Part shown: one piece after another, positions 12,824 to 25,057 of the stretch
Layout of the letters: each line of letters opens with the position of its first letter
Position numbering within the stretch: the first letter of the stretch is position 1
DNA from: a virus
DNA: 25,086 nt
Reading direction: 5' to 3' (one strand)
Virus record (IMG/VR): IMGVR_UViG_3300042569_001655
Coordinates: 1 to 25,086 of that record
Program-made: the position numbers and the translations under genes
The notes under the pieces: generated by a model
The model's input: the letters and a program-made list of their open reading frames with translations, nothing else
Database searches by the model: none
Told to the model about the DNA's origin: nothing

Positions 12824-12900
12824 TGGTCGGAATGACACGGTTCGAACGTGCGACCACTGCGTCCCAAACGCAGAGCTCTACCAGGCTGAGCTACATTCCG
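12824..12900 (-). tRNA. tRNA-Pro(TGG)
   Basis: Acceptor CGGAATG/CATTCCG, loop TTTGGGA on CTGCG/CGCAG, T-loop TTCGAAC, CCA encoded. Confidence 0.93.
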
Positions 12901-12908
12901 AATTAAAC

Positions 12909-13127
12909 TTACTTTAACTTGGGATCAATTGACTTATCAACTTCGTGCGGTTCTGCAAACCTAGGAGTTGGCTGATCCCAATACGCTGGAAAGATCTTCC
13001 AGCCAAAACTTTTCCAGTAACGATGAATGATGTTGTTTATCACAACAACCCCAGCCACGATTACAATTACACCTGTCATTGTTAAAACACTGCCGGCTAA
13101 AAATACTGCCGCTTGATCCATATCCAT
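12909..13127 (-). CDS. Small membrane protein (72 aa)
   Basis: After a short acidic N-terminus (MDMDQAAVF) a single long hydrophobic segment runs over residues 10-33 (SVLTMTGVIVIVAGVVVI), followed by a basic-aromatic stretch (HRYWKSFGWKIFPAYW) and a polar tail. This fits one membrane span with the tail in the cytoplasm. It lies 24 nt downstream of the oxygenase-like gene and ends just before tRNA-Pro. Function unknown. Confidence 0.7.
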   Translation of the reverse strand: MDMDQAAVFLAGSVLTMTGVIVIVAGVVVINNIIHRYWKSFGWKIFPAYWDQPTPRFAEPHEVDKSIDPKLK

Positions 13128-13151
13128 ATTTGTAAATCCTTTGGAGTTGTG

Positions 13152-13769
13152 TTATTTCAGCATCAATTCCACAGGATCAATAATGGGCATGGTTGCCAGC
13201 ATGATCCTGGGATATTTTGCATCAGGCCCCGGCATAACCCTGTGAGGGATATAACTGTTGAAAACAATAGGATGCTCATGCATGTTATACCTCAGCAAAC
13301 AAGGATACTGATCTTGTACAGTGTGATGTAACACAGAAAAATTATACTGTTCTGTGCCTGTGTATGGGTTTGTCATAACCGGGAGCCGATTCATGGCTTC
13401 CTTGGGAATATCATACCACTCTGTATAAACATCCTCAGTGTTGTAGATTGGAAAGTTTATTTTGAAGTTCATGGGCGGTGCATCGTTGTGCAACACAACC
13501 CCATCGGTCATACCTTCTGTCAGCAATCCCACTGTGATTTCTTTGATAGGCAGGTTGACTCGAAACATAAATCGCAACAAATTTGGACACACCTTGGCCA
13601 TTTGTTTGTAATCTATCAGATGCCAGAACTTTTTTTCTTGTTTTTCGTTTAGAAAATCAGTGTTATCTACAACCCAGTTCATTATCTCTTCTTTGATTTG
13701 ATCAAGGTTGTCACACTCAAGTTCGTGTATACATTTGAAACGACTTTGGTCTGGGATATAATCAATCAT
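13152..13769 (-). CDS. 2-oxoglutarate/Fe(II) oxygenase-like protein (205 aa)
   Basis: The segment VVLHNDAPPMNFKINFPIYN holds an H-x-D pair in a beta-strand setting, and the later FNSYIPHRVMPG supplies a distal His and an Arg, the usual iron and 2-oxoglutarate ligands of the double-stranded beta-helix family. Small enzymes of this type are frequent in large phages and modify proteins, nucleic acids or small molecules. The motif match is by eye only. TAAATA lies four bases before ATG 13769, and there is no good Shine-Dalgarno sequence. Confidence 0.6.
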   Translation of the reverse strand: MIDYIPDQSRFKCIHELECDNLDQIKEEIMNWVVDNTDFLNEKQEKKFWHLIDYKQMAKVCPNLLRFMFRVNLPIKEITVGLLTEGMTDGVVLHNDAPPMNFKINFPIYNTEDVYTEWYDIPKEAMNRLPVMTNPYTGTEQYNFSVLHHTVQDQYPCLLRYNMHEHPIVFNSYIPHRVMPGPDAKYPRIMLATMPIIDPVELMLK

Positions 13770-13794
13770 GATATATTTACTACCTACAATTATT

Positions 13795-13868
13795 TGGAGC
13801 AGGGTAGGGGAATCGAACCCCTCGCTTTAGCTTGGAAGGCTAAGGTATTACCACTATACGAACCCTGC
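13795..13868 (-). tRNA. tRNA-Gly(TCC)
   Basis: Acceptor GCAGGGT/ACCCTGC, loop CTTCCAA on TTAGC/GCTAA, T-loop TTCGATT, CCA encoded. Confidence 0.94.
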
Positions 13869-13880
13869 GTTGAATTACTT

Positions 13881-13909
13881 ATTATACAGCATCTTAGCAA
13901 TACTGTAAA
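13881..13909 (-). promoter_or_regulatory. Sigma70 promoter inside the tRNA array
   Basis: TTTACA, 17 bases, TATAAT on the minus strand, between tRNA-Ile and tRNA-Gly(TCC). It starts a new transcription unit six bases or so before tRNA-Gly(TCC). Confidence 0.75.
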
Positions 13910-13916
13910 GCAATTT

Positions 13917-13991
13917 TGGTAGCCATGGACAATTTCGAAATGTCGACCTAACGCTTATCAAGCGTTTGCTCTTCCTCTGAGCTACACGGCT
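13917..13991 (-). tRNA. tRNA-Ile(GAT)
   Basis: Acceptor AGCCGTG/CATGGCT, loop TTGATAA on AACGC/GCGTT, T-loop TTCGAAA, CCA encoded. Confidence 0.92.
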
Positions 13992-14000
13992 AAATATTGA

Positions 14001-14174
14001 ATGCACATTGACGTCTATCTACAAAAACAGTTGTACTGCACCATTGAACTAAGTCAGCCCGGTTACAATGTGCCTGCTATCTTGGATCAAATCCAAAGTG
14101 ATCGCGAAGCTGGCAACTTGACCTGGGTACAGTGGGATCAGCCGCTTGACTTTGAAGTCAAATACTTTGAATAA
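14001..14174 (+). CDS. Small plus-strand protein inside the tRNA array (57 aa)
   Basis: The frame fills the gap between tRNA-Ile and tRNA-Gln exactly and does not overlap either. The product begins MHIDVYLQKQLYCTIELSQP and ends acidic-aromatic (LDFEVKYFE). Codon use and the strand-like alternation look like a genuine small protein, of unknown family. It runs against nearly every other gene in the window. TAAATA lies four bases before the ATG, and there is no Shine-Dalgarno sequence. Confidence 0.6.
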   Translation: MHIDVYLQKQLYCTIELSQPGYNVPAILDQIQSDREAGNLTWVQWDQPLDFEVKYFE

Positions 14175-14176
14175 CT

Positions 14177-14250
14177 TGGCACGGGAACTAGGGCTCGAAC
14201 CTAGAATGACAGAGTCAAAGTCTGTAGTGTTACCATTACACTATTCCCGA
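14177..14250 (-). tRNA. tRNA-Gln(TTG)
   Basis: Acceptor TCGGGAA/TTCCCGT with an open U1-U72 pair, which suits glutaminyl-tRNA synthetase. Loop CTTTGAC on ACAGA/TCTGT, T-loop TTCGAGC, CCA encoded. Confidence 0.92.
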
Positions 14251-14258
14251 ACAAAACT

Positions 14259-14333
14259 TGGTGGATGTAAGTAGATTCGAACTACTGACCTGCCGCGTAT
14301 GAAGCGAATGCACTACCGCTGTGCTATACATCC
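14259..14333 (-). tRNA. tRNA with CAT anticodon (probably Met)
   Basis: Acceptor GGATGTA/TACATCC, loop TTCATAC, T-loop TTCGAAT, A73, CCA encoded. The anticodon stem is only four pairs. It has no GGG/CCC initiator signature, so elongator Met or lysidine-modified Ile are the options. Confidence 0.85.
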
Positions 14334-14336
14334 GAT

Positions 14337-14410
14337 TGGGGTATCCAATGAGAATTGAACTCATGATAGCGGAATCACAATCCGCGGTTTTACCACTAAA
14401 CTATGGACAC
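14337..14410 (-). tRNA. tRNA-His(GTG)
   Basis: Acceptor GTGTCCA/TGGATAC with C73; the base before G1 is G, giving the G-1:C73 pair typical of histidine. Loop TTGTGAT on GCGGA/TCCGC, CCA encoded. Confidence 0.93.
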
Positions 14411-14411
14411 C

Positions 14412-14526
14412 ATATAGGAGCACTCTCAACAGCAGGCCTAGGAGGCAATCTGGTTGCTGAAACTTTTGCATCTGCAGATACTAGGCTTCTTCTCCCGCGT
14501 TGACTTACGCCAAGAATGCTTTTATA
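14412..14526 (-). ncRNA. Candidate structured RNA between tRNA-Lys and tRNA-His
   Basis: This 115-nt stretch has no start codon that yields a plausible protein. On the minus strand AGCATTCTTGGC (14520-14509) pairs with GTTGAGAGTGCT (about 14430-14419) using several G-U pairs, and inside it GCCTAG pairs with CTAGGC. The GCATTCT...AGAGTGC arms recur at 15217-15272. It has no CCA and no cloverleaf. Confidence 0.4.
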
Positions 14527-14600
14527 TGGTAGGGGTGTTCGGGAACGATCCGAATTTTACTGGTTAAAAGCCAGTTACTTCACCTTAAAGTTTCACCCCC
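14527..14600 (-). tRNA. tRNA-Lys(TTT) with unusual T-loop
   Basis: Acceptor GGGGGTG/CACCCCT, loop CTTTTAA on ACTGG/CCAGT, A73, CCA encoded. The T-loop reads ATCGTTC instead of TTCRANY: T54 and A58 are exchanged to A54 and T58. Position 8 is A instead of T. Confidence 0.85.
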
Positions 14601-14651
14601 ATAGGTTTATCACTCTTGTCACTAGTCATGACAGATCTCCTTTTAAAAAAT

Positions 14652-14728
14652 TGGTACCACCTGAGAGATTCAAACTCCCGACCCCTAAGTTCGTAGCCTA
14701 GTGCTCTGTTCAGCTGAGCTAAGGTGGT
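14652..14728 (-). tRNA. tRNA-Arg(ACG)
   Basis: Acceptor ACCACCT/AGGTGGT, loop CTACGAA on CTAGG/CTTAG, T-loop TTTGAAT, CCA encoded. ACG would need A-to-I editing by host TadA to read CGC and CGA. Confidence 0.92.
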
Positions 14729-14732
14729 GTGT

Positions 14733-14808
14733 TGGTGCCCCTTGTCCGACTCGAACAGACCACCTACTGCTTACAAAACAGTTGCTCTACCGGATGAGCT
14801 AAAGGGGC
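14733..14808 (-). tRNA. tRNA-Thr(TGT)
   Basis: Acceptor GCCCCTT/AAGGGGC, loop TTTGTAA on ACTGT/GCAGT, T-loop TTCGAGT, CCA encoded. Confidence 0.93.
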
Positions 14809-14815
14809 AAATTGT

Positions 14816-14905
14816 TGGCGGTGCGAAAGAGACTCGAACTCTTAAAGCGGCTTTCACCACTCGACGGATTAGCAATCCGCTCCAATACCATTATGGGACC
14901 GCACC
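14816..14905 (-). tRNA. tRNA-Ser(GCT)
   Basis: Acceptor GGTGCGG/TCGCACC, loop TTGCTAA on GCGGA/TCCGT, long variable arm, G73, CCA encoded. Confidence 0.92.
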
Positions 14906-14912
14906 TCAAATT

Positions 14913-14988
14913 TGGCTCCCCAGCGTGGGATCGAACCACGGACACCTTGATTAACAGTCAAGTGCAACTACCGCTGTGCTACTAGGGA
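14913..14988 (-). tRNA. tRNA-Asn(GTT)
   Basis: Acceptor TCCCTAG/CTGGGGA, loop CTGTTAA on CTTGA/TCAAG, G73, CCA encoded. An 8-bp hairpin (TAGTAGGC/GCCTACTA, 14999-15020) lies upstream and may guide processing. Confidence 0.93.
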
Positions 14989-15029
14989 ATAATCTACTTA
15001 GTAGGCACTCATGCCTACTATCAAAAACT

Positions 15030-15106
15030 TGGCGACCCGGGAAGGATTTGAACCTCCGACATTTGGTTTTGGAGACCAACGTTCTGCCAGACTGAACTAC
15101 CGAGCC
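15030..15106 (-). tRNA. tRNA-Trp(CCA)
   Basis: Acceptor GGCTCGG/CCGGGTC, loop CTCCAAA on TTGGT/ACCAA, G73, CCA encoded. Confidence 0.93.
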
Positions 15107-15111
15107 ATATT

Positions 15112-15186
15112 TGGTGGAGGATAAGAGAATTGAACTCTTTTGACCTACGTGCAAGGCAGGCATAATACCCAGTATATGAATCCCCC
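15112..15186 (-). tRNA. tRNA-Ala(TGC)
   Basis: Acceptor GGGGGAT/ATCCTCC (G3-U70, the alanine identity pair), loop CTTGCAC on CCTGC/GTAGG, CCA encoded. Confidence 0.93.
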
Positions 15187-15216
15187 AAATTTTCAAACAC
15201 ACTGTTTCCAATGTGT

Positions 15217-15272
15217 GTATTAAAGCACTCTAAAATACTTAGGCTGCCTGTTCGTAAAGAATGCTTTAATAC
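15217..15272 (-). repeat. 15-bp inverted repeat / hairpin
   Basis: GTATTAAAGCATTCT (15272-15258) pairs with AGAGTGCTTTAATAC (15231-15217), with one G-U on the minus strand, enclosing a 26-nt loop. There is no U-tract, so it is probably not a terminator. The loop holds GAACAGGCAGCCTAA, which recalls the end of the tmRNA tag frame; this may be chance. Between here and 15360 I see no convincing gene, only a weak 22-codon frame (15357-15289). Confidence 0.65.
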
Positions 15273-15368
15273 GCTGTAATTTTTTATCTCACAAAAGAGA
15301 CTCTATCCTACAGGCCGCCCATTTGTAGTTTAGAGTGATACCGGCTCTCGTTGCCATTGCACTAAATG

Positions 15369-15400
15369 AAAAACCCTGGAGTGTTTAGTTCCAGGGTCTT
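15369..15400 (-). terminator. Intrinsic terminator after the 44-codon ORF
   Basis: The stem ACCCTGGA/TCCAGGGT is 8 bp with a 9-nt loop, followed by TTTTTC on the minus strand. AGACCC at its 5' arm is complementary to GGGTCT inside the preceding ORF, which could form a competing antiterminator. Confidence 0.75.
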
Positions 15401-15420
15401 GTTGAATTTGTCAGTTACTT

Positions 15421-15555
15421 TTATGCGTAACCTGCACCTTCAATAGACCCCGACATCCCTAGAATACTATTCACGCGACCAGAGGCGTGTGACCAGGTAA
15501 ATGTTGCCTGGAGCATCGCGGGTTTTGTCGACAGTGAACGGAATGTTGTTTTCAT
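15421..15555 (-). CDS. Small ORF, candidate leader peptide (44 aa)
   Basis: ATG 15555 opens MKTTFRSLSTKPAMLQATFT and ends GAGYA. It lies about ten bases after the -10 box of its own promoter and is followed by the terminator at 15369-15400. The same order (promoter, MKxTF peptide, GGGTCT, AGACCC-containing terminator) recurs at 17237-17403. It may be a regulatory leader peptide for the tRNA genes downstream or a small protein in its own right. Confidence 0.55.
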   Translation of the reverse strand: MKTTFRSLSTKPAMLQATFTWSHASGRVNSILGMSGSIEGAGYA

Positions 15556-15565
15556 CTTAAGTCCT

Positions 15566-15594
15566 ATTGTAGTTTATTTATGATTGTTTGTCAA
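15566..15594 (-). promoter_or_regulatory. Sigma70 promoter for the 44-codon ORF and tRNA unit
   Basis: TTGACA, 17 bases, TACAAT on the minus strand, between tRNA-Met(CAT) and the 44-codon ORF. Confidence 0.8.
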
Positions 15595-15610
15595 TCACAA
15601 ATGGTAAAAT

Positions 15611-15684
15611 TGGTTGCGGGTGAAGGATTCGAACCTCCGTCTTCTAGGTTATGAGCCTAGTAGTCTACCACTGACGTAACCCGC
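15611..15684 (-). tRNA. tRNA-Met(CAT)
   Basis: Acceptor GCGGGTT/CACCCGC with a G-U-type mismatch near the base, loop CTCATAA on CTAGG/CCTAG, T-loop TTCGAAT, A73, CCA encoded. Probably elongator Met. Position 8 is A. Confidence 0.88.
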
Positions 15685-15703
15685 GTTAACTTTTATTTAT
15701 ATC

Positions 15704-15779
15704 TGGAGTAGGTGACAGGACTCGAACCTGCATTTTACGGATTTGCAATCCGGCGCCTAACCATTCGGCACACACCTAC
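15704..15779 (-). tRNA. tRNA-Cys(GCA)
   Basis: Acceptor GTAGGTG/CACCTAC, loop TTGCAAA, T-loop TTCGAGT, CCA encoded. One mismatch lies at the outer anticodon stem pair. Confidence 0.9.
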
Positions 15780-15784
15780 ACTAA

Positions 15785-16002
15785 TTGAATTTGCAAGTAG
15801 TTGCTCCATCGTTATAGCAACCATTCACCCGTGTAATAAACTCGAGCGGGACTCGGTACGTCACTTGGGATACTAGTCCAGTTTGTCTCCGTTACAGACA
15901 CCACCCTTGCGAGTGGTTGGGAGTTGAACCCATCACCTTCTACTGTTTTGGTCCTTCGAAGAAACCTAGACAGCATGACATTCTCTTGCTGACACTTACA
16001 AA
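15785..16002 (-). ncRNA. Candidate structured RNA block A in the tRNA array
   Basis: No protein frame is convincing. The minus strand contains a string of hairpins: CAGCA/TGCTG (about 15991-15971), CCACTC-GCAA-GGGTGG with a GNRA tetraloop (about 15916-15901), TGTCT/AGACA (about 15901-15885), GGACT/AGTCC, and GTTGCT/AGCAAC (about 15822-15801). A T-arm-like TGGG-TTCAACT-CCCA is also present, without a cloverleaf around it. Confidence 0.5.
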
Positions 16003-16005
16003 ACT

Positions 16006-16080
16006 TGGCGATGCATGGGAGAATCGAACTCCCGTCTCCGGATAGACAATCCGGGATAATGACCATTATATGAATGCACC
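16006..16080 (-). tRNA. tRNA-Asp(GTC)
   Basis: Acceptor GGTGCAT/ATGCATC, loop TTGTCTA on CCGGA/TCCGG, T-loop TTCGATT, G73, CCA encoded. Confidence 0.94.
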
Positions 16081-16087
16081 TTAAACT

Positions 16088-16162
16088 TGGCGGTCCCAGG
16101 GGGTAACGATCCCCCTCTTCAGCAGTGACAGTGCTGTGTGCGTCCATGAACACCTTGAGACC
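16088..16162 (-). tRNA. Second tRNA-Asp(GTC) with unusual T-loop
   Basis: Acceptor GGTCTCA/TGGGACC, loop CTGTCAC on CAGCA/TGCTG, G73, CCA encoded. The T-loop is ATCGTTA on a GGGGG/CCCCC stem, with the same T54-to-A and A58-to-T exchange as tRNA-Lys, and position 8 is again A. The D-arm is short. Confidence 0.72.
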
Positions 16163-16164
16163 AA

Positions 16165-16317
16165 TTTTTATAGTTAAGCACCGAGAATGCCAATTTAGGA
16201 GTCCGGTGCTTCTGTTCCAAAGCCGATGCAGTTATATCAGGATCAGTCGCCGGCCGCTGTGACCCGAATAGTGTAAGCGTCCTTACACGATACCTTATCG
16301 GTGCTTAACTATAAAAA
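16165..16317 (-). ncRNA. Candidate structured RNA closed by a perfect 20-bp stem
   Basis: The arms 16165-16184 and 16298-16317 are perfect inverted repeats of 20 bp. Inside lies GTGTAAG-GACG-CTTACAC (7 bp). An internal AAGCACCG (about 16209-16202) can also pair with the CGGTGCTT of the downstream arm, which would compete with the outer stem. There is no protein frame and no CCA. This is the clearest folded non-coding element in the window. Confidence 0.65.
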
Positions 16318-16319
16318 CA

Positions 16320-16520
16320 AAAATGCTCTGCATCCCCCGGCGGTAATTGTAGTACATCAAGATACGACGCTATCGTACCCATCACACGTACCTTCCACCC
16401 GCTTCCCGACAGGGACCGTTATCGCATTGCTAGCGGCCTTTGGGTTCAAAGACTACCACCCGTAGCTGTCACGCTACTTCTCATCGTGTGGGTCACACTA
16501 TCCGGAGACACCCGGAACGT
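16320..16520 (-). ncRNA. Candidate structured RNA block B in the tRNA array
   Basis: At least five perfect short hairpins follow one another: CCGG/CCGG (16515-16502), GTGTG/CACAC (16498-16486), GTAGC/GCTAC (16477-16462), CTTTG/CAAAG (16451-16438) and TACGA/TCGTA (16377-16363). The plus-strand frame through this region includes the tRNA-Tyr antisense and is not protein-like. It may be part of one larger RNA together with the neighbouring blocks. Confidence 0.5.
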
Positions 16521-16523
16521 TCT

Positions 16524-16609
16524 TGGTGGAGATGGATGGATTTGAACCACCGCGCTTTTTACAGAACAGATTTACAGTCTGCCGCCTTCAACCACTCGGC
16601 CACATCTCC
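16524..16609 (-). tRNA. tRNA-Tyr(GTA)
   Basis: Acceptor GGAGATG/CATCTCC, loop CTGTAAA on CAGA/TCTG, long variable arm, T-loop TTCAAAT, A73, CCA encoded. Confidence 0.93.
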
Positions 16610-16680
16610 AAAAAAGGGAGAGCTACGGTTGCAGGACCTAGTGCCTCTTGCGAGGGAAGTATCCAGGCGATGTAGCTCTC
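16610..16680 (-). ncRNA. Candidate small RNA with 3' U-tract
   Basis: GAGAGCTAC (16680-16672) pairs perfectly with GTAGCTCTC (16626-16618), followed by CCTTTTTTGG. The 45-nt interior contains CCTC-GCAA-GAGG, another GNRA hairpin. It could be a small stable RNA, comparable in position to the extra stable RNAs of the T4 tRNA cluster, or an elaborate terminator before tRNA-Tyr. Confidence 0.5.
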
Positions 16681-16684
16681 AAAC

Positions 16685-16759
16685 TGGTAGAGCGTAGGAG
16701 AGTCGAACTCCTCTTATGCGGATGAAAACCGCATGTCCTAACCGATAGACGAACGCTCC
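16685..16759 (-). tRNA. tRNA-Glu(TTC)
   Basis: Acceptor GGAGCGT/ACGCTCT (G1-U72), loop TTTTCAT on TGCGG/CCGCA, T-loop TTCGACT, CCA encoded. Confidence 0.93.
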
Positions 16760-17374: not shown

Positions 17375-17403
17375 ATTATATATGACAGCAGACAAAAAGT
17401 CTA
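17375..17403 (-). promoter_or_regulatory. Sigma70 promoter for the 28-codon ORF
   Basis: TAGACT, 17 bases, TATAAT on the minus strand, placed so that transcription starts at or next to the ATG. Confidence 0.7.
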
Positions 17404-17419
17404 CTGTTTTGGTAAAATT

Positions 17420-17750
17420 GGATAGGTTTATTCTGTTACGAGGAAAACCTATCAAAACCCTAGGCAGTGTTTAGGCTGCCAATGCGAACTGTTCGTCGTT
17501 TGCGTTTACGTTTTTTGCTTCTACGACCGGGAAACCCCAACCCTACGGCTTTCACATTGCCGAGCTGTCCACTCTGTTACTCTTTGCCCTGTCGAAACCA
17601 TGGCAGGCCCATTATAAAACATACTCAAACGGGTCTTTTCGCCTATCCCCGTGCCGTGGCTTGCAAGGATAGGGCTGAATATGCTTTATGGTGGACCTGG
17701 CGGGAGTCGAACCCGCGTCCAGAACACTTTTCTCTTTGCTTCATACAGCA
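17420..17750 (-). ncRNA. ssrA: Two-piece (circularly permuted) tmRNA
   Basis: The acceptor piece comes first: about 17750 to the encoded CCA at 17691-17689, with T-arm GCGGG-TTCGACT-CCCGC and acceptor strand CAGGTCC. The coding piece starts at G17610 with GGGCCTG, which pairs with CAGGTCC through one G-U, followed by the tmRNA signature GGTTTCGACAGGG. The tag frame is GCA at 17518 to stop TAA at 17473-17471 and encodes AKNVNANDEQFALAA. The stop lies in a hairpin (GGCAG/CTGCC). The spacer 17611-17688 folds into a long hairpin (ATAAAGCATATTCA with TGAGTATGTTTTAT, plus an inner CCTATCC/GGGATAGG) that would bring the two ends together for cutting. A 9-bp hairpin (17453-17421) closes the 3' side. 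tmRNA rescues stalled ribosomes and tags the product for proteolysis. Exact piece ends are estimates. Confidence 0.93.
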
Positions 17751-17759
17751 ATAACCTAT

Positions 17760-17788
17760 ATTATATTAGGCTTTCTGAATTTTGTCAA
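17760..17788 (-). promoter_or_regulatory. Consensus sigma70 promoter for tmRNA
   Basis: TTGACA, 17 bases, TATAAT: a perfect consensus on the minus strand. It lies inside the last codons and stop of the DctP-like gene. The start is expected near 17753, at the head of the acceptor piece. Confidence 0.9.
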
Positions 17789-18710
17789 CCAAACCGGCAC
17801 TGAATGTGTTGGCAAATTGATCATATACTTTGGCAGTTACCTTGCGAAAAGTTTGCTCATCAGCATCGCTAAATTTAATAACACGAATGCCATCTTGCTC
17901 ACAACGTGCCTTGGTAGGCTCAACTTCGGCCACAGCCACAGCACGCTCAAAACGTCCAGCTTCTAATGCCGCATCTTTCATGACCTGTTGCAGGTCTGCA
18001 GACAAGCCAGCCAAGAAGTTCTTGTTCACAATGATGTTAGTCAACAACAAGCGATGGTTGGGTTCCAAGATAGATTCAGCAACTTCGTTTTGTTGGCAAG
18101 CATAGATACGTGGCCATGAGCTTTCGCCGCCATCAATAGCACCATCTCGGATGCCTTCGGCCACACGTTCAACGTCCATCACAACTGGATCAGCGCCCAG
18201 GGCAGTCCATGTAGCGGCTGCAACTGGTGAATTTGACACACGCACTTTAACGCCGGCCATTTCACTTAGACTTGCAACGTCACGATTCATGGGCATGTTC
18301 ATAAAGCCACCTGAGTAGGTAAATGCCATGCCTTTGATGTTGCTGTTCTTGGCGTAACCATCCAGCAAACTCTCGCCAATTTCACTTTCAAACACACGTG
18401 CCGCGTGATCGTGATCACGGAACAAGAAAGGCAAATCAAGTGCGTCAAGATCATTGTTGTACTTGCTGAGTACATAAGTGTACATCTGGCTCATTTCAAT
18501 AGCGCCAGTGTCCATAACATCCAACAGGTTATGTTTGGTGATTGGTTCACCATGATTGTACTTGCTGGTATACTCGCTTAGAGTCAGCACTTCAATCTCA
18601 AACTGTCCTGGTGCACGGGCTTCTACTACTTCAGTAAATTTTTCAGCGGCACGAATAAAAATGTCAATAGGTTCATGGGCTAATACCCATTTGATGTGGA
18701 TAGGTTTCAT
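17766..18710 (-). CDS. DctP-like TRAP solute-binding protein without signal peptide (314 aa)
   Basis: The sequence follows DctP-type receptors of tripartite ATP-independent transporters: AAEKFTEVVEARAPGQFEIEV near the start, ALDLPFLFRDHDHAARVF, GGFMNMPMNRDV, then GVKVRVSNSPVAAATWTALG with the ligand-binding Arg, and GAIDGGESSWPRIY. These proteins normally bind carboxylates in the periplasm. Here ATG 18710 (AAGGA nine bases upstream) leads straight into the mature domain, MKPIHIKWVLAHEP, with no signal peptide, and the 11 upstream in-frame residues add none. The product may stay in the cytoplasm or the gene may have lost its export signal. No TRAP membrane genes (DctQ/DctM) are seen. It lies 185 nt after the PP-loop/halogenase operon; that gap holds a possible TGCTATACA -10 box (near 18845) and short GC hairpins. 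Confidence 0.85.
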   Translation of the reverse strand: MKPIHIKWVLAHEPIDIFIRAAEKFTEVVEARAPGQFEIEVLTLSEYTSKYNHGEPITKHNLLDVMDTGAIEMSQMYTYVLSKYNNDLDALDLPFLFRDHDHAARVFESEIGESLLDGYAKNSNIKGMAFTYSGGFMNMPMNRDVASLSEMAGVKVRVSNSPVAAATWTALGADPVVMDVERVAEGIRDGAIDGGESSWPRIYACQQNEVAESILEPNHRLLLTNIIVNKNFLAGLSADLQQVMKDAALEAGRFERAVAVAEVEPTKARCEQDGIRVIKFSDADEQTFRKVTAKVYDQFANTFSAGLVDKIQKA

Positions 18711-18895
18711 AATATTTTTTCCTTGAGTAATAGCTTGCATGTGTATGCTACGGTGGGCGTTCTAGGTATTGTGCTAGTAAAGGGCATTGCCCAAGCGTCC
18801 ATTATTTCCGACGTCAGCCCCTGCTGGCGTTGCTAGAATTATTTAGCTTTTGCAAGCGTCTTGTATAGCATTTTTAAGGCATTAGTGCGCAATTG

Positions 18896-20080
18896 TTAAA
18901 ATTTAAAATGATTGTTGATACCTGAGCTTTCAAAGTCAGCTTCGCCCAGGTAATAAAAGGGTGATAAAAACCCCACAAAGCCAACTGCTTGCCCCATTTC
19001 TCTGTTGAAGTACTTGCTGTCAATAGTTTTTACTAGATGTGCAAGACCCGCTTGCCATTTGGCATACTGTGCAGTTTCTTTAAAGTTGGTATAAAACCAA
19101 TGATCCATCTCGTTGTAAAAACTGTTGGTTGGTTTACTGGTCTGGAATGTTTCTTGATTGTACTGTGGGTAGATTAACGGCTTGATCAAGTGCTCGTATG
19201 TTGTTCGATGGGTGTAGCTGTAGTTTGGCCAACGGCACACATACTGCATGTGTTTGTTGTGCTCTAGCATAAACCAGTTCTTGACCATGTGGCATTGTTT
19301 GATAAACATCTCTGGCAAGTCAGGCGTCCAATAAAAATATTCGTTGGTCATGTTGGTATAATCACCAAAATCACCCATGCTATGATTGGCCATAACATCA
19401 ATAAAGTAAGCGTACCACTTTTTGTCCTTGATGCATAGCTTGGGCTTGTCTACCCCGTACAAGATGCAAATGCGTTGACCAGTGTCTGCTAGCTTTTTGT
19501 GACCTACATAGCCTGTAGCTGAGTGCTTGAACGCATGTCCAGGTTGGAAATAATCTTTAGTTTTCATAACCCAAGATTCATCATACACTTGAGTTAACAT
19601 GTTTTCACTGTAGTCGTGCATGGTAATTTTTGTGCGAGGTGAAGCAGTGGTCAACCAGTTCAGCACAGGATATGCCGCATAACGTGCTTCGCTTAGAGTG
19701 TTCTCAGGTTTGCAGTTAAACGGATCGTCGCTAACATCTTTCTCACCAGTCTTGGGATATCGAAAAACAACCTCATCAAGGTGTATTCCGTTGTTGATAA
19801 AGCTATACAATGCTGTAGTCGAATCTCCCCCACCAGAAAATTCTAAACGAATGTAATCGTACTTGTCCCGTAATTGTTGCGCACGAATTCGATACAGGTC
19901 TAGGATATTGATATTGGGTTCAACTAGCCAATTTTCGGCACCAAATATTTCGTTGCTGAAATTCCATTCGGGAAACTGATTGGTTTCTGTTGCCTTGGTC
20001 AGTGCCATGGGCTTGCTAAAAAACTTTTCAGTTCCTACAGTGTAGTACCCCAACTTGGGGTTTTGTTCAATCTTGATCAT
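18896..20080 (-). CDS. PP-loop ATPase-like protein 2 (394 aa)
   Basis: The P-loop of N-type ATP pyrophosphatases is at residues 82-87: IRLEFSGGGDSTTALY. Enzymes of this fold (asparagine synthetase C-terminal domain, tRNA thiolases, NAD synthetase) activate a carboxyl or carbonyl by adenylation. The N-terminus (LGYYTVGTEKFFSKPMALTK) matches the other PP-loop protein of the operon (GFYTVGPRKTYSKLEAIEHS), so the two are paralogues. The C-terminal 250 residues are rich in Tyr and Trp and are not recognised. ATGA overlap couples it to the halogenase-like gene. Confidence 0.72.
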   Translation of the reverse strand: MIKIEQNPKLGYYTVGTEKFFSKPMALTKATETNQFPEWNFSNEIFGAENWLVEPNINILDLYRIRAQQLRDKYDYIRLEFSGGGDSTTALYSFINNGIHLDEVVFRYPKTGEKDVSDDPFNCKPENTLSEARYAAYPVLNWLTTASPRTKITMHDYSENMLTQVYDESWVMKTKDYFQPGHAFKHSATGYVGHKKLADTGQRICILYGVDKPKLCIKDKKWYAYFIDVMANHSMGDFGDYTNMTNEYFYWTPDLPEMFIKQCHMVKNWFMLEHNKHMQYVCRWPNYSYTHRTTYEHLIKPLIYPQYNQETFQTSKPTNSFYNEMDHWFYTNFKETAQYAKWQAGLAHLVKTIDSKYFNREMGQAVGFVGFLSPFYYLGEADFESSGINNHFKF

Positions 20081-21690
20081 TGTGAGGTTCCAAAAAAGTT
20101 GTTGTACCAGTTGTTGGCTGACTGTGCATGCTTGGCTTGTATTTTATTTTTGCTGTTAAAGTAGTCAAAAAAGTTTATGGCCAGTTGTTCAGTTTCGTTG
20201 TCAATGTCTATTTGCCAGGGCAGATCTATGCCATAGTACATGGCCATGTTTGCTAAAGGACCTTGATACCAAAAGTGCTGAAGTTTATCATTATAGTGTC
20301 GTCTTGATTCAGACACAACAGTGTCCTGCAGCCATTCCTTGATGCAAAGCTCTTGACCAACAGAATTCATCAATTGCCAGTATGGAGTATCGTTTTTTGG
20401 CGCTAGATACATACCAACTTGAATACGTTTCAGCACGTCATTATTGATGTTGTTAACAAACTGATTGTACGAATCTTTCCAGTCAAACGTTCGATCATGA
20501 TCCTGCTTGATGTAATCAACCAATTGATTAATAAAAGCCAACTGAGTTGAAAATCCATTGGCGTCATATACGTCAGTAAACCCGCTGGAGATACCCAGCG
20601 TCACACAATTAGCCACAAATGTTTGTTCAAAGAATCCGGCCTGCCAAGATATTTTTCTTTTGATTGCACCCTTCATCCACGGGAACCGCTGATCAAACTC
20701 GTCAATCAACTGCTGTTCATCAGTAGTAAAGTTTTTGTTGTACACATAACCATTGCCACTGCGCCCTGGTTGTGGCAGACCAAACACCCATCCTTGACTC
20801 ATGGCATAATGTCTGGACACACAATCTGATGGATTTTCTAGATCATGACGATTTGGTCCCTGCCCAACTATTGCGGCATTGTTAATAGTATCTTCAACCG
20901 GACGCCAACGAAACGGTACAAACTGCGAAAACAATCTCTTGAACCCGGTACAGTCAACAAACAGATCTGCATGCACCTGTGAATCGTCTTCACCTACTAG
21001 GTGAGTAACTCTGGTCCCATCAAACACCACATTCTTAATTCGCAGAGCTTGAACTTTGACTCCGCAAGGAATGCCCACGCTTTCGTGAATTACGTCTTTG
21101 ACATAATCAGCATTGAAATGAAAACTTGAAACCAATCGCTTCTGTGGCAGATGCTGTTTGTTCATGATTGTTTTGTAATAGCTATACCAATAGCTTTCGC
21201 TTAGGTCGCCAGCCCTGTTTTCATTTTTACGCAGTCCTTTGTTGTATAGGTGTAACCATACGTCCCACAATGTGTATTTGTCATCTTCGGCACCCGATGC
21301 TGGACCCAGAGGTTTTGTTCTATGCCCATAGGTGTCTGTTATAGATTGTGTAATTATCTTGGCACTAGGATTCCACTGGAATCCAGAGACCATGGGTGTC
21401 TCGGTGCCATCAAATCCAAAAAATGCCACACCATACTTGTAGCTAGAATTTGATTTTTTCATCCAGTCATAAGAGCTCTCGTCATCAATGCCAAACAGTT
21501 TGCGCATAACATCACGACAGTTAAACGCAATGCTTTCTCCGACACCGATGTAAGGAGTGTTGGGATCATGTACAATAGTCACATCAGTTCCTGGACAATT
21601 TCTTTTTATGGCGGCGGCTGCAAAATATCCAGCGGCTCCGGCGCCCACAATCACAACTTTGAGTGGCTTGGCTTCAGCATTTTTTATCAT
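20077..21690 (-). CDS. Flavin-dependent tryptophan-halogenase-like protein (537 aa)
   Basis: The FAD-binding motif VVIVGAGAAGYFAAAAI is at residues 12-28. VGESIAFNCRDVM around 50-62 corresponds to the family's GEAT segment, and Lys85 in SSYKYGVAF sits where the catalytic lysine of PrnA/RebH lies. DCTGFKRLF near 246-254 is also typical. The family hallmark WxWxIP is altered to GWVFGLP at 300-306, with Phe for the second Trp. Tryptophan halogenases use FADH2, oxygen and halide to chlorinate or brominate aromatic rings; homologues with unknown substrates occur in cyanophages. ATGA overlaps join it to PP-loop genes on both sides. Whether it still halogenates is uncertain, and a flavin reductase is not seen in the window. 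Confidence 0.85.
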   Translation of the reverse strand: MIKNAEAKPLKVVIVGAGAAGYFAAAAIKRNCPGTDVTIVHDPNTPYIGVGESIAFNCRDVMRKLFGIDDESSYDWMKKSNSSYKYGVAFFGFDGTETPMVSGFQWNPSAKIITQSITDTYGHRTKPLGPASGAEDDKYTLWDVWLHLYNKGLRKNENRAGDLSESYWYSYYKTIMNKQHLPQKRLVSSFHFNADYVKDVIHESVGIPCGVKVQALRIKNVVFDGTRVTHLVGEDDSQVHADLFVDCTGFKRLFSQFVPFRWRPVEDTINNAAIVGQGPNRHDLENPSDCVSRHYAMSQGWVFGLPQPGRSGNGYVYNKNFTTDEQQLIDEFDQRFPWMKGAIKRKISWQAGFFEQTFVANCVTLGISSGFTDVYDANGFSTQLAFINQLVDYIKQDHDRTFDWKDSYNQFVNNINNDVLKRIQVGMYLAPKNDTPYWQLMNSVGQELCIKEWLQDTVVSESRRHYNDKLQHFWYQGPLANMAMYYGIDLPWQIDIDNETEQLAINFFDYFNSKNKIQAKHAQSANNWYNNFFGTSQ

Positions 21691-22913
21691 GTTATCCTAT
21701 AAGTGTTTTTTAAATTAACGTAACAGCCGTTGAGTGACTTGGTACCGGCAATTTCGTCCCAGTGCTTGGGTGCAATGGTTTTTACATGATTCCTAAGCCA
21801 CGCAAACCCTCGTGCATAATAATTTTGTCCTAGATCAGGAGACAAACTATTCCATAACCATTCGTCACGTTGTGGCCAACTGGTGCATAATGGTTTTTTA
21901 GCCACAACAGCATCGGGCATCCAATCTTGGTAAATTAACCTGTGCATTCCGCCCATGGTCAAGGTATAAGGTTTGTTGTTGTGGGTAAAATACACCGCTG
22001 CCAATCCTGCTGTGTCGTTAAACGAAAGGTGCAGAGATCTTGAAATTTTGCCTTCAACTACATGTTTACCATCACAGTGGCCTGGGTCAAATTTTTCACA
22101 GTAGTTTTTGATCACATGCGCTTGTTTGCAAGGCAACATTGGAAAATCAGCACCCCAATAAAAGTACTCGTCGTATTCGCCAGGTCGATTCAGCATCTGA
22201 GCATAGCCACTAACGCCGTGATCAAGTCCATCTCTAAAATTAACAAACCAATCTGTGCCTTGCTGTGTTATCATGGGCTTTTCAATTCCCCAAATAAAAC
22301 ACAGGCGTTTACCTTGATTGATGATATTGGCGTAGTCGGGTATGTCCTGTCTAAATTGATGTCTTGACAAAGTAACTGGAGAGAAGTAATTGTTGACTCT
22401 GTAAAAGTGATCCCAGCGAGTGTTGTAATCCTTTAACAGTTTGATTTCCATGTCAGTAATATCAACCAGTCGATGTTTAGTGTTGCGATACACAGGATTG
22501 TTAGCCAGCAACTGCTGGGTGATTGGTATACTAGTCTGTGCTAGCTCTTCATGAAAAAAAGTGGTCTTGTCATCGTGTGCGGCTTTCATGTTGGTGTACT
22601 GCGCAATCTCATCTATAAAGATATTGTTGCGTACAAAGGTCTGCAGGATATTGTGACTGTCAGCACCGCCACTAAACCACAGCACAATGTAATCATACTG
22701 ATCTCTAATTTGCCTAGCACGTTGCTCGTACCAAAAATCTAAACTGCCCGGAGGTTCCTGGGACCAGTCAACGGATTGATAGGTGTCTTGATTGTAGTGC
22801 CATTCTACTGGCAGTTTTGATTGTGCGCTGTGCTCAATTGCTTCTAGTTTGCTGTAGGTTTTACGTGGACCCACAGTGTAGAATCCATATCGATCGCGAT
22901 TGTCTAGAGACAT
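21687..22913 (-). CDS. PP-loop ATPase-like protein 1 (408 aa)
   Basis: I start at ATG 22913, one base after the Bug-protein stop (TGATATG). The longer frame would overlap that gene by 104 nt, and the paralogue downstream begins at the same point in the alignment. SGGADS at residues 81-86 (YIVLWFSGGADSHNILQTF) is the pyrophosphate-binding loop of N-type ATP pyrophosphatases. A string of Trp and Tyr residues follows, shared in part with the downstream paralogue (YFYWGADFPML here, FYWTPDLPEMF there). The substrate is unknown. Together the pair may activate a small molecule or peptide for the halogenase. Confidence 0.72.
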   Translation of the reverse strand: MSLDNRDRYGFYTVGPRKTYSKLEAIEHSAQSKLPVEWHYNQDTYQSVDWSQEPPGSLDFWYEQRARQIRDQYDYIVLWFSGGADSHNILQTFVRNNIFIDEIAQYTNMKAAHDDKTTFFHEELAQTSIPITQQLLANNPVYRNTKHRLVDITDMEIKLLKDYNTRWDHFYRVNNYFSPVTLSRHQFRQDIPDYANIINQGKRLCFIWGIEKPMITQQGTDWFVNFRDGLDHGVSGYAQMLNRPGEYDEYFYWGADFPMLPCKQAHVIKNYCEKFDPGHCDGKHVVEGKISRSLHLSFNDTAGLAAVYFTHNNKPYTLTMGGMHRLIYQDWMPDAVVAKKPLCTSWPQRDEWLWNSLSPDLGQNYYARGFAWLRNHVKTIAPKHWDEIAGTKSLNGCYVNLKNTYRIT

Positions 22914-22914
22914 A

Positions 22915-23823
22915 TCAACGTCGAACGCCTTGGGCGGCTTGTTGCCAGTGCCTATTTTCCTGGGCAAAACGTTTTTCCACTTCGGCAAGACTGAGAACAG
23001 GGGTTGACAAATATGCATTGGCCTGACGTTGTTGTATGCCTGAGTCTGTGGCCAGCACCTCTAGGTCTCGACGATATTGAGCAATATCTGCCTCTGGAGT
23101 AGCGGCAGGCACCAGTAACCAAAGATTGAGCACAAAATTTTCTAGTCCACGCATGCCAAGGCTGGCAAATGTGGGAATGCCTCGATGACTGCGAGTGCCT
23201 GTAATAGCGATTGGAAACAGTTGTCCACCATCAATCCAGCCTTCGCTATCAGCCAAGAATTCACTGGTTAGATCAATGTGTCCGCCTATAGCATCACGTG
23301 TGGCTTCGATGCCTCCAGGATAAAACGCCAACACCAGTTCAGTGTTGGGAAGATGTTGTTGCATGGCAATGGCCATAAGATGCGATATACTGCCCGGAAC
23401 AACCCCAATGGTCAATGTGCGTTGTTGGCGTAGTTCAGCCCAGCTACGATATTTTTTGCTCATTAATACCGGCGCTTGGTCGCCAGCAAACATCATGATA
23501 GGACGGAACTGTTCAACTCGATGCGCTTCAGTTTCTTTAAACAGCAAAGGCCTGATCATAAAACTGCTGGATGCGGCCAGCACTTCTGGACGCTGTGCAT
23601 TGGCCACAGAGTTTGCGGCAATACTACCACCAGCACCTGGCCGGGTTGCAAACACATAGGTGCGTTGTGTCTGTGTTTTGTTGGCCAGTGCAGTGCCTTG
23701 TCGCAACACATTGGCTGTATTGCTACCGGGACTGAATCCCCATACCACTGAAACAGTTTCAGCACTGGCGGTCACTGCCATCACACTCAAAATCAAAGTT
23801 AATAAAAATTTATTCATTGTCAT
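22915..23823 (-). CDS. Bug / TctC-family binding protein heading the halogenase operon (302 aa)
   Basis: The N-terminus MTMNKFLLTLILSVMAVTAS, followed by AE, is a signal peptide. The mature protein has VVWGFSPGSNTAN and TRPGAGGSIAANSVANAQRP, the two loops that surround the carboxylate in Bug/TctC receptors. GGAG lies four bases before ATG 23823 (ten before ATG 23817, an alternative). It overlaps the previous gene by 14 nt and is followed after one base by the first PP-loop gene. This is a periplasmic binding protein in a translationally coupled operon with a halogenase, which I have not seen described. No transport membrane protein is near. Confidence 0.87.
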   Translation of the reverse strand: MTMNKFLLTLILSVMAVTASAETVSVVWGFSPGSNTANVLRQGTALANKTQTQRTYVFATRPGAGGSIAANSVANAQRPEVLAASSSFMIRPLLFKETEAHRVEQFRPIMMFAGDQAPVLMSKKYRSWAELRQQRTLTIGVVPGSISHLMAIAMQQHLPNTELVLAFYPGGIEATRDAIGGHIDLTSEFLADSEGWIDGGQLFPIAITGTRSHRGIPTFASLGMRGLENFVLNLWLLVPAATPEADIAQYRRDLEVLATDSGIQQRQANAYLSTPVLSLAEVEKRFAQENRHWQQAAQGVRR

Positions 23824-24364
23824 TATTCTCCACAGGGATCCACCCCAATTTAAAAAAATCCTCTTGGATCTCGTCAGTGACATGACCTTCGCCCACAAAG
23901 TGTTTGTCATACCACTCAATTCTTGCTCGTTGCTCACTAGTCAACTCCGCATCATCTGTTGCGGCACCACCACGTATGCCCGAACAATACCAGTCCATGT
24001 AGTCGCCTTGTTCACGCATGTCGGCCACAATACCCCCGGCGTAGCGCCACGAGCACGACCAAGTTTGGCCCTTCAACAATGGCCACACTGCGTTGCGTTG
24101 CCAGTCTTGATTGCACAAGGCCGCGTAGATGTTTTGTGCATACTCTTCTCGTGCTTTGGCCTTGGCACAGATCCACTCGGTACTGCGTAGATCGTATTCA
24201 AGATTGTTTTTCTTCCACTCCTCGTCAGCGTCGCGGGCAAGATCATGTGCCTTGGCATCTTCGTACATGTTCAAGTAATCCTGATTGGGCTCCTCGCCAG
24301 TTTCTTCACAGCGTTTGATATAGTTTTCTGCTTGAAAGGTATGACGTTCTTTGCTACGATTCAT
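23810..24364 (-). CDS. Phage-type hypothetical protein (184 aa)
   Basis: The protein is acidic and helical. Its start, MNRSKERHTFQAENYIKRCE, and its middle, KAREEYAQNIYAALCNQDW followed by TWSCSWRYAGGIVADMR, resemble a family of hypothetical proteins found in T4-like and other large phages. This recognition is from memory of the pattern and not from a search. It begins 14 nt after tRNA-Leu(TAA) and runs into the Bug gene, so it links the tRNA unit with the halogenase operon on one transcript. Confidence 0.7.
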   Translation of the reverse strand: MNRSKERHTFQAENYIKRCEETGEEPNQDYLNMYEDAKAHDLARDADEEWKKNNLEYDLRSTEWICAKAKAREEYAQNIYAALCNQDWQRNAVWPLLKGQTWSCSWRYAGGIVADMREQGDYMDWYCSGIRGGAATDDAELTSEQRARIEWYDKHFVGEGHVTDEIQEDFFKLGWIPVENNDNE

Positions 24365-24377: not shown

Positions 24378-24463
24378 TGGTACCAGAGACGGGACTCGAA
24401 CCCGTATGCCCTTGCGAGCGGCAGATTTTAAGTCTGCTGTGTATACCATTCCACCACTCTGGC
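24378..24463 (-). tRNA. tRNA-Leu(TAA)
   Basis: Acceptor GCCAGAG/CTCTGGT (G1-U72), loop CTTAAAA on CAGA/TCTG, long variable arm with a GCAA tetraloop, T-loop TTCGAGT, A73, CCA encoded. It is a normal type II leucine tRNA, unlike the CAA and TAG isoacceptors. Confidence 0.94.
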
Positions 24464-24472
24464 GAGTGTTTG

Positions 24473-24649
24473 TTAACCGCCTCGGCCGGCTGCTTTGCGA
24501 ACTGGTTTACCTGCGGGTGCTAGCGGAGCAGAACGTTTGGCGGCCTTTTGCTGAGTCTTTGATAACTTTGCATCAGGATGCGCAGAGGCATTCTTTCGAT
24601 CTAGTGCTTGTTTCACTGCTGTGATAAAAGGTACTGGCGTTTTTGACAT
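24473..24649 (-). CDS. Small basic protein (58 aa)
   Basis: GGAG lies six bases before ATG 24649. After MSKTPVPFITAVKQALDRKN, the C-terminal half is a lysine-, alanine- and proline-rich tail (KTQQKAAKRSAPLAPAGKPV, ending RKAAGRGG) like the tails of small nucleoid or DNA-condensing proteins. It lies 13 nt after the previous gene and just before tRNA-Leu. The family is not recognised. Confidence 0.65.
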   Translation of the reverse strand: MSKTPVPFITAVKQALDRKNASAHPDAKLSKTQQKAAKRSAPLAPAGKPVRKAAGRGG

Positions 24650-24662
24650 TGTTGCTCCAAGT

Positions 24663-24896
24663 TTATTTAGCGGTCAGTTGTGCCCAGGCCAACCATTGCT
24701 TAAATGCATTATACACTGTTTCTGCTTCTTTGTCATCCACTGGCACTCGAACTCCACGTACATAGAATCCTTCTGGAGTGACCTTTATCATTTCATCTCC
24801 ATCATTTAATGTCCATGAAATTGTATTGTTATGATACAAGCCTTCGGTACTGCCGCCCATGTCTACCTGTAGTGTCTGCGGTTTGATAGGTGTCAT
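24663..24896 (-). CDS. Hypothetical phage-type protein (77 aa)
   Basis: ATG 24896 has AGGA five bases upstream; the longer frame would enter tRNA-Arg. The protein opens MTPIKPQTLQVDMGGSTEGL and ends with a conserved-looking MIKVTPEGFYVRGVRVPVDD and a helix (AETVYNAFKQWLAWAQ). Such strand-strand-helix proteins are frequent in phage accessory regions without known function. Confidence 0.72.
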   Translation of the reverse strand: MTPIKPQTLQVDMGGSTEGLYHNNTISWTLNDGDEMIKVTPEGFYVRGVRVPVDDKEAETVYNAFKQWLAWAQLTAK

Positions 24897-24905
24897 GCTA
24901 GTCCT

Positions 24906-24980
24906 TGGTCCGGCGTGCAAGAATCGAACTCACATTCAAGAGGTAGAAGCTCTTTGTATTATCCATTATACTAACGCCAG
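24906..24980 (-). tRNA. tRNA-Arg(TCT)
   Basis: Acceptor CTGGCGT/ACGCCGG, loop CTTCTAC on AAGAG/CTCTT, T-loop TTCGATT, CCA encoded. Confidence 0.92.
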
Positions 24981-24982
24981 GT

Positions 24983-25057
24983 TGGTGGGACCACTTGGAA
25001 TTGAACCAAGACTCAATCGATTATGAGTCGACTGCTTTACCATTAAGCTATGATCCC
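24983..25057 (-). tRNA. tRNA with CAT anticodon (Ile2-like or Met)
   Basis: Acceptor GGGATCA/TGGTCCC, loop CTCATAA on GTCGA/TCGAT, T-loop TTCAATT, A73, CCA encoded. The anticodon arm resembles E. coli tRNA-Ile2, which needs lysidine at C34 to read AUA. Confidence 0.88.

Follow-up and report, generated by a model that had tools for sequence, protein, structure and literature searches.

A recurrent viral module of PP-loop and carboxylate-binding-protein genes associated with a candidate structured leader RNA

Introduction

A 25,086-base stretch of viral DNA from IMG/VR (record IMGVR_UViG_3300042569_001655; the whole stretch is called the window here) carries on its minus strand a compact block of four genes, encoding a Bug-type solute-binding protein, two PP-loop proteins and, between these two, a protein resembling flavin-dependent halogenases. 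What would a phage do with such a set? A first-pass annotation proposed a small biosynthetic or modification pathway of a composition not known to have been described. That the genes form part of a recurrent phage-borne unit is upheld below; that these four are its core is not. Judged from sequence comparison, the recurrent core is PP-loop genes, a Bug gene and a gene for a DctP-fold protein lacking a signal peptide, together with a structured leader RNA. No description of this module or of the RNA was found in the literature searched.

Results

PP-loop, Bug and DctP genes recur together

Checked base by base, the four genes are joined as first read, by a 1-nt gap and two ATGA overlaps. The Bug stop codon (TGA, 22917–22915) is followed by a single base (22914) and the ATG of PP-loop protein 1 (22913); the halogenase-like gene shares ATGA with the PP-loop gene on either side. 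An in-frame ATG further upstream of PP-loop 1, at 23018, would run into Bug, and we place the start at 22913 because aligned relatives favour it. The DctP gene is a fifth gene, 185 bases after PP-loop 2; its start (18710) was chosen from relatives, and the reading frame is open from 18740 too. This gene, the RNA and the residue Asp376 discussed below were absent from the first-pass annotation. Two longer contigs (128,034 and 100,363 bases) hold the same module with proteins 100% identical to those of the window.

We selected 82 viral loci by their PP-loop gene, labelled open reading frames (ORFs) with profiles made from the first set, and counted 66 loci after excluding 16 with less than 2.5 kb beyond the PP-loop gene. 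A Bug and/or DctP gene lies within 2 kb on the same strand in 61 of the 66 (both in 39, Bug only in 12, DctP only in 10), in keeping with the earlier suggestion of a carboxylate-binding partner. Binding proteins account for 147 of 625 ORFs within 2.5 kb of a PP-loop gene in the PP-selected loci and for none of 574 beyond 4 kb. The presence of near-copies among the loci (such as L013–L015 and L046–L048) means that the counts are not independent. Gene order across these loci shows the PP-loop, Bug and DctP genes to travel together, across many viral contigs; TctA follows in L017 and L023.

A covarying RNA heads the binding-protein genes

A conserved non-coding stretch sits between the PP-loop and DctP/Bug genes. 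The window copy scores 104 bits against a covariance model, which finds the RNA in 68 further places of 93 sources, three being window copies. Among 24 long contigs, 21 contain 23 copies (single in 19, double in two), and G011, G012 and G024 gave no match. The gene after the RNA in 66 PP-selected matches is DctP in 49, Bug in 13 and u276 in one; two RNAs run into a contig end and in one the next gene is more than 150 nt away.

The fold was assigned by hand on a first alignment of 29 members, on which RNAalifold alone gives 17 pairs, 11 with double changes. In a free alignment of these members 14 of 24 pairs have changed on both sides, double-change cells number 99 as against 27.4 after shuffling, and 33 columns are invariant. 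A larger alignment comprises 98 copies, of which 97 are distinct; they form 74 clusters at 80% identity and have a mean identity of 57%. It was fitted to the covariance model, which favours the fold. In it pairing is kept in 97.0% of pair cells and double changes occur at 18 of 23 pairs, with 464 double-change cells as against 116.8 (standard deviation 17.2) when shuffled and no more than 50 when slid. In 88 copies the closing helix is an intact CGG/CCG, and it appears once as GGG/CCC and once as CGA/UCG; CCG is also absent from 8/8 copies without CGG. Covariation of this kind rejects chance hairpins. Pairing of the Shine-Dalgarno sequence with the 3' strand of P3, noticed by eye, was dropped, the CCUU letters not being kept.

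At the gathering score, Rfam 15 gave no match in the window or in 20 further loci, some of which may lack the RNA, and a known Rfam family was rejected on this ground; the best lax matches (E 0.3 and 2) look like chance. As far as Rfam 15 shows, the RNA is uncatalogued. It has one mark of a riboswitch class, a conserved covarying fold 5' of related genes; ligand switching is putative. For comparison, a passage of PMC7029224 states that Riboswitch Scanner found no riboswitch in pelagimyophages or cyanomyoviruses, and a passage of PMC9004378 describes a glutamine riboswitch and a transfer-messenger RNA (tmRNA) in methylophage Melnitz. That phage resembles ours in pairing a structured RNA with a tmRNA gene, but the RNA described here is without an Rfam match and is mostly followed by genes for binding proteins. 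The window tmRNA gene (17380–17802, minus strand) is permuted and of betaproteobacterial type, with the tag ANDEQFALAA, and its predicted end overlaps the 3' end of DctP; permuted tmRNAs also occur in L050, L053, L054, L189 and L194, loci with the RNA-led module.

Matches to the RNA have so far come only from viral or virus-like contigs. A search of bacterial genomes, confined to Pseudomonadota and run with stricter filters, found it in one of 369 gammaproteobacterial genomes and in one of 398 from Pseudomonadota; on both occasions this was the metagenome-assembled genome (MAG) on which the sample had been centred. A blastn search of cultured phages with one RNA copy gave no match.

A late-promoter-like box precedes the RNA

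Among the 98 copies, the box ahead of the RNA reads NATAAATA in 61 and CTAAATA in 30. Its distance to the RNA core is 13–14 nt in 74 of 90 measured copies, and a Shine-Dalgarno-like motif precedes the start codon in 64 of 90. Upstream regions are enriched in TATAAATA on the reading strand (46, with 10.6 expected) and not on the reverse (9, with 9.6 expected); 12 of the regions bearing it lie before Bug or DctP. A control word, TATAATAT, also shows an excess of about twofold (16 against 7.8), but the enrichment of TATAAATA is fourfold and absent from the reverse strand, and we rejected plain AT-richness as its source. The T4/S-PM2 late promoter consensus is given in a passage of PMC2984593 as TATAAATA/NATAAATA, and the loci show one mark of a T4-type late promoter, a TATAAATA-like box at a fixed distance. 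T4-type gp23 was matched in seven of the 24 long contigs, the six longest included.

Sequence comparison thus shows the RNA starting just behind a late-promoter-like box and directly 5' of DctP or Bug, and less often directly 5' of a PP-loop, TctA or halogenase gene or of another gene for transport or tailoring. We place high confidence in the RNA and in its linkage to these genes.

The phage DctP is probably cytosolic

Both binding proteins have the folds, by profile and Protein Data Bank (PDB) sequence match, of solute receptors of known uptake systems: DctP of the tripartite ATP-independent periplasmic (TRAP) transporters and Bug/TctC of the tripartite tricarboxylate transporters. The window Bug matches Bug27 (E 4e-12) and BugD (E 7e-11) in the PDB; it differs from TctC in scoring 24.7 bits against that profile, under the Pfam cut-off of 27. 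DctP has the carboxylate-binding Arg167, the usual ligand residue, which 40 of 48 relatives retain. Signal peptides were called by a plain hydropathy scan rather than SignalP. A hydrophobic N-terminus is present in the window Bug, and 79 of 80 Bugs reach a hydropathy of 2.0 there. Within the first 70 residues, none of 48 full-length DctP relatives or 12 N-terminal halves has a strongly hydrophobic stretch (maxima at most 1.82). Across the 24 long contigs, fragments included, DctP was matched in 19, TctA in three and the TRAP membrane subunit DctM in none.

Because it lacks a hydrophobic N-terminus and DctM is missing from those contigs, the phage DctP is probably cytosolic, and the simplest reading of its sequence is a carboxylate binder rather than a transport subunit. 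It departs from TRAP DctP in a further respect. In 11 loci (L029, L032, L034, L036, L039, L052, L062, L063, L065, L066 and L073) it is cut at the same place into two open ORFs, which overlap by 4, 17 or 23 nt; the C-terminal half begins at the ligand Arg, with MKIRTN or a sequence close to it.

A cytosolic binder that keeps its ligand Arg, and open split pairs that suggest binding without transport, would also suit counter-defence, with DctP as a sponge for a carboxylate-bearing signal or toxin that the PP-loop, halogenase or 2-oxoglutarate (2OG) enzymes modify. We consider this improbable: late-promoter-like boxes are ill-suited to early defence, and the Bugs are probably exported.

A second, typical Bug/TctC gene lies far from the module at 4966–5913 of the window (minus strand; PF03401, 6.7e-43), without a leader RNA.

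The RNA also heads other accessory operons

An RNA-only pattern matched 111 viral stretches, 105 of them new loci. Within 220 nt the next gene in these is DctP in 27, Bug in 22, PP-loop in 14, TctA in six, halogenase in one and another gene in 27, with no gene in five and a contig end in three; 73 of the 105 have a PP-loop gene no more than 5 kb away. Removal of RNAs already seen and of near-copies left a non-redundant set of 46, in which 33 have a PP-loop, DctP, Bug, TctA or u276 gene within 5 kb (28 of them a PP-loop gene). In the part of the other cargo that was examined we found SBP_bac_8 with an ATP-binding cassette (ABC) permease, porins, TauD, hexapeptide transferases, a fatty-acid desaturase, an aspartyl/asparaginyl-hydroxylase match, NadE and an AMP-binding enzyme. 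Judged from this cargo, the RNA marks accessory operons rich in uptake and tailoring genes, among which the PP-loop/binding-protein module is commonest. Since it heads module-free operons too, it may serve late accessory operons generally, not one metabolite.

Several of these operons can be described individually. The RNA precedes an SBP_bac_8-type gene in L148, L146 and L152; in L148 an ABC permease (Pfam) follows and then, by eye, a second permease and an ATPase. Another small biosynthetic set is formed by the RNA-led operons of L158 (hexapeptide transferase, desaturase, hydroxylase and NadE), L149 (hexapeptide transferase and desaturase-like gene, both by eye) and L183 (hexapeptide transferase, TauD and, by eye, an acyl-carrier-like protein).

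PstS is a phosphate-binding protein. Cyanophages carry its gene, according to a passage of PMC2984593, and nutrient scavenging offers a second account of the module: unrelated genes for organic-acid uptake and for nitrogen or NAD metabolism would share one late slot, behind an RNA that is a generic stability or translation leader. There are one or two RNA copies per contig regardless of cargo, the cargo includes TctA, an ABC-type binding protein with permease, porins and NadE, and two Bugs bind quinolinate, an NAD precursor (PMC11452294). However, DctP without signal peptide or DctM is hardly a TRAP uptake protein, and the 33 invariant columns of the first RNA alignment seem too many for a stability hairpin. 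We regard scavenging as unlikely, though a rival of some weight.

The PP-loop proteins resemble asparagine synthetases in predicted structure

The two PP-loop proteins are paralogues, as first proposed (27% identity, E 3e-36; GFYTVG and GYYTVG near the N-terminus, SGGADS and SGGGDS loops). Neither matches Pfam or NCBIfam at E up to 0.1, a PDB sequence search found no match for either, and PHROGs returned a single match (E 0.089). Pfam Asn_synthase matches neither these two nor any of 39 family members; QueC, another PP-loop family in Pfam, is matched by three of the 39 (best E 0.017). A profile of those 39 finds at least 510 relatives among at least 599 matched IMG/VR stretches, the best 80 of which were retained. 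In 84,980 species genomes, only five of 62 pattern stretches encode a relative: one on a 3.2-kb MAG contig that also bears DctP and the RNA and is probably viral, and four in Bacteriovoracaceae at 29–32%. On these counts the family is nearly viral-only and without clear annotation in the libraries searched, and its near absence from the species genomes led us to reject a host origin of the gene. No relative was found in 50,697 phage records by single-sequence tblastn searches; with neither PP-loop nor RNA matches in cultured phages, no strain is at hand. In L091 (9977–11658), a Bacteriovoracaceae MAG, the PP-loop relative and a small methyltransferase-like gene overlap by 4 nt; the latter has a GCGP motif, and we take it to be nicotianamine-synthase-like.

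AlphaFold models of both proteins are confident (predicted local distance difference test, pLDDT, 88.1 for PP-loop 2 and 87.7 for PP-loop 1; predicted template modelling score 0.90). Both match asparagine synthetases best (Z 10.7–11.3 over 242–289 residues, root-mean-square deviation 4.7–5.7, 7–10% identity): the PP-loop 1 model matches ASNS at Z 11.3 and AsnB at Z 10.8, and the PP-loop 2 model ASNS/AsnB at Z 10.8–11.3. Beta-lactam and carbapenam synthetases come next for both (Z 8.2–9.9; beta-lactam synthetase 9.0–9.9). The top rows listed by VIA-align are asparagine, beta-lactam and carbapenam synthetases and TsnB9, followed, among the matches listed, by TilS, NAD synthetases, GMP synthetases and LarE at Z 7–9. 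In BFVD, the best matches of PP-loop 2 are six uncharacterised proteins of uncultured Caudovirales phages (query-length TM 0.67–0.89).

The family shares with asparagine synthetase B and beta-lactam synthetase the SGG.DS PP-loop, a whole-length resemblance of the predicted fold (Z 8–11) and an invariant Lys212; it differs in lacking a complete glutaminase domain and a Pfam Asn_synthase match, in its identity of 7–13% and in being nearly viral-only. The most diverse alignment (30 members) keeps invariant the loop residues Ser81, Gly83, Asp85 and Ser86 and also Lys212 and Phe251. With the AsnB-like fold, the invariant loop makes ATP-dependent carboxylate activation the likeliest chemistry, and the models agree with the adenylate-type activity first suggested. 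The stretch before the PP-loop domain, only about 57 residues, cannot accommodate a complete N-terminal glutaminase domain, and neither protein begins Met-Cys. A remnant of that domain is possible, since the structural alignment to asparagine synthetases begins at residue 1–3. Without a glutaminase domain, the ammonia or amine substrate would have to come from elsewhere.

The halogenase-like enzyme is a rare, optional part

The flavoenzyme matches PF04820 at 2.8e-52. As the first-pass annotation had it, the FAD site (GxGxxG, GVGES) is present and the catalytic Lys (Lys79 of PrnA) is kept, as Lys85. All 104 aligned rows have this Lys. The position of the catalytic Glu (PrnA Glu346) holds Asp376; the 104 rows have Glu in 98, Asp in five and Gly in one, and the Asp rows are only the three window copies, L163 and L155, three module lineages. 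The WxWxIP motif is not kept: GWVFGLP stands in its place, with Phe303 for the second Trp, which is Trp in 89 rows, Phe in 11, Tyr in two and Leu in two. The closest relative found is that of L163 (33%).

Aromatic halogenation or oxidation was first proposed, and the Glu-to-Asp and Trp-to-Phe changes make halogenation uncertain. A related monooxygenase, or a slow enzyme, rather than a halogenase is a serious contender that we still place below an even chance. In its favour are the Asp at the catalytic Glu position, which among the 104 rows is confined to the three module lineages, and the Phe in WxWxIP, a motif that, as a passage of the review PMC8407142 suggests, prevents monooxygenation. The same source, however, describes a halogenase that keeps low activity after a Glu-to-Asp change and some true halogenases without WxWxIP; moreover, Lys85 is universal in the alignment, and L070, a locus lacking the RNA, has a halogenase 3.4 kb away from a PP-loop gene, on the opposite strand, that retains Glu.

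Two outcomes had been named as fatal to the pathway idea, that the genes never occur together elsewhere and that the PP-loop models lack ATP-type geometry. Neither was seen: the models are AsnB-like, and halogenase and module genes meet again in two loci. In L155 the order is RNA, halogenase, Bug, PP-loop; in L163 it is DctP, PP-loop (opposite strand), RNA and Bug, with the halogenase about 3.4 kb on. Such meetings are few. We took 80 of 297 matched phage halogenase loci, and three have module genes in the flank, two of them window copies. The halogenase is therefore not part of the core of the unit and, on this sampling, looks like a rare optional part of the module.

Like VirX1 and the cyanophage flavin halogenases, the window protein is a phage-borne PF04820 member with the catalytic Lys (Lys79 in VirX1), but it shares 22–28% identity with them and has Asp for Glu and Phe for Trp. 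The setting differs as well: the two cyanophage copies examined (L096 and L098) follow tail-fibre or collagen-like genes and are accompanied by several 2OG oxygenases in a row. Syn10 (L095) has two halogenase-like genes in tandem amid genes annotated as hypothetical.

Halogenases beside tail-fibre or collagen-like genes and 2OG oxygenases, in S-CREM1 and Sf-FP1, raise the possibility that the module enzymes act on phage or virion proteins, and of the nine PP-selected loci with a weakly 2OG-Fe(II)-like gene, eight have it within 2.5 kb of a PP-loop gene. We give such protein modification little credence: near the window module no structural gene was recognised by eye (no profile search was made), and a Bug predicted to be periplasmic is left unexplained.

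A proposed late programme

The reading we prefer, at somewhat short of an even chance in its full form, is that the window holds a variant of an accessory operon conserved among large phages, probably T4-like ones. The unit would be transcribed late in infection; the RNA would act in cis as the 5' leader of the late mRNA and would most likely be a switch that senses a metabolite or protein. Bug would catch an organic acid in the periplasm for a permease, host TctA or, in some phages, phage TctA, and the signal-less DctP would bind a carboxylate in the cytosol. The asparagine-synthetase-like PP-loop proteins may adenylate a carboxylate and join it to an amine, the two diverged copies taking different substrates or acting one after the other; optional tailoring would fall to flavin halogenase-like enzymes or 2OG-Fe oxygenases. 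For the chemistry taken separately, our support is tentative. In a bolder version, a riboswitch class confined to phages would detect a carboxylate-derived metabolite late in infection and control an operon whose cytosolic, export-less DctP and glutaminase-free, asparagine-synthetase-like ligases make an amide or conjugate found only in infected cells, sometimes oxidised or halogenated; this strikes us as unlikely.

Several observations pull against the preferred reading. The window RNA precedes DctP, not the four-gene block. Five of the 66 loci (L023, L058, L059, L061 and L069) have no binding-protein gene within 2 kb, the DctP of L023 being about 2.4 kb away; in contigs G006, G009, G010 and G020, DctP genes lie far from the module; and 13 of the 46 non-redundant RNA loci, some on short contigs, have no module gene within 5 kb. 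Further pair types on the first 29 RNA copies are fewer than in shuffles (23 against 28.4), and single RNA sequences fold no better than shuffles (z 0.54, 0.31, -0.88 and -1.56). The asparagine-synthetase match is one of fold at very low identity, with the glutaminase domain missing. Finally, the two longer contigs that carry the window are fragments and gave no gp23 match, so the T4 kinship of this phage is by analogy.

These results suggest that viruses with the module run a regulated small-molecule programme late in infection, and they turn an odd four-gene block into a recurrent phage programme that can be tested. The conserved RNA, usually one copy per contig and probably a sensor, is a handle on it; a ligand of the RNA or of the export-less DctP would reveal what large phages gather or make late.

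Other features of the window

Table 1. Positions of the module and adjoining features in the window
Feature	Position	Strand	Basis
184-aa protein, function unassigned; overlaps Bug start; relatives upstream of module in several loci	23810..24364	-	
Bug/TctC-type solute-binding protein, N-terminus signal-peptide-like (predicted periplasmic)	22915..23823	-	Bug27 PDB match, TctC below cut-off, hydrophobic N-terminus
PP-loop protein 1, 408 aa, SGGADS loop, predicted asparagine-synthetase-like fold	21687..22913	-	model, pLDDT 87.7
Flavin-dependent halogenase-like protein; Lys85, Asp376, Phe303	20077..21690	-	PF04820 and alignment
PP-loop protein 2, 394 aa, SGGGDS loop, predicted asparagine-synthetase-like fold	18896..20080	-	model, pLDDT 88.1
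CTAAATA box, T4-type late-promoter-like, 6 nt 5' of RNA core	18840..18846	-	
Structured leader RNA, core about 18733-18833	18717..18847	-	covariance-model match; no Rfam match
DctP-fold protein without signal peptide, ATG 18710	17766..18710	-	PF03480, 4.7e-54

Beyond the module, 29 tRNA genes lie at 11470–16759 and 24378–25057 of the window (minus strand), mostly in one dense cluster. Genes for S-adenosylhomocysteine hydrolase and for AhpD-like, aldolase-like and AhpC/peroxiredoxin proteins, read from sequence alone, stand in a row at 7556–11175 (minus strand).

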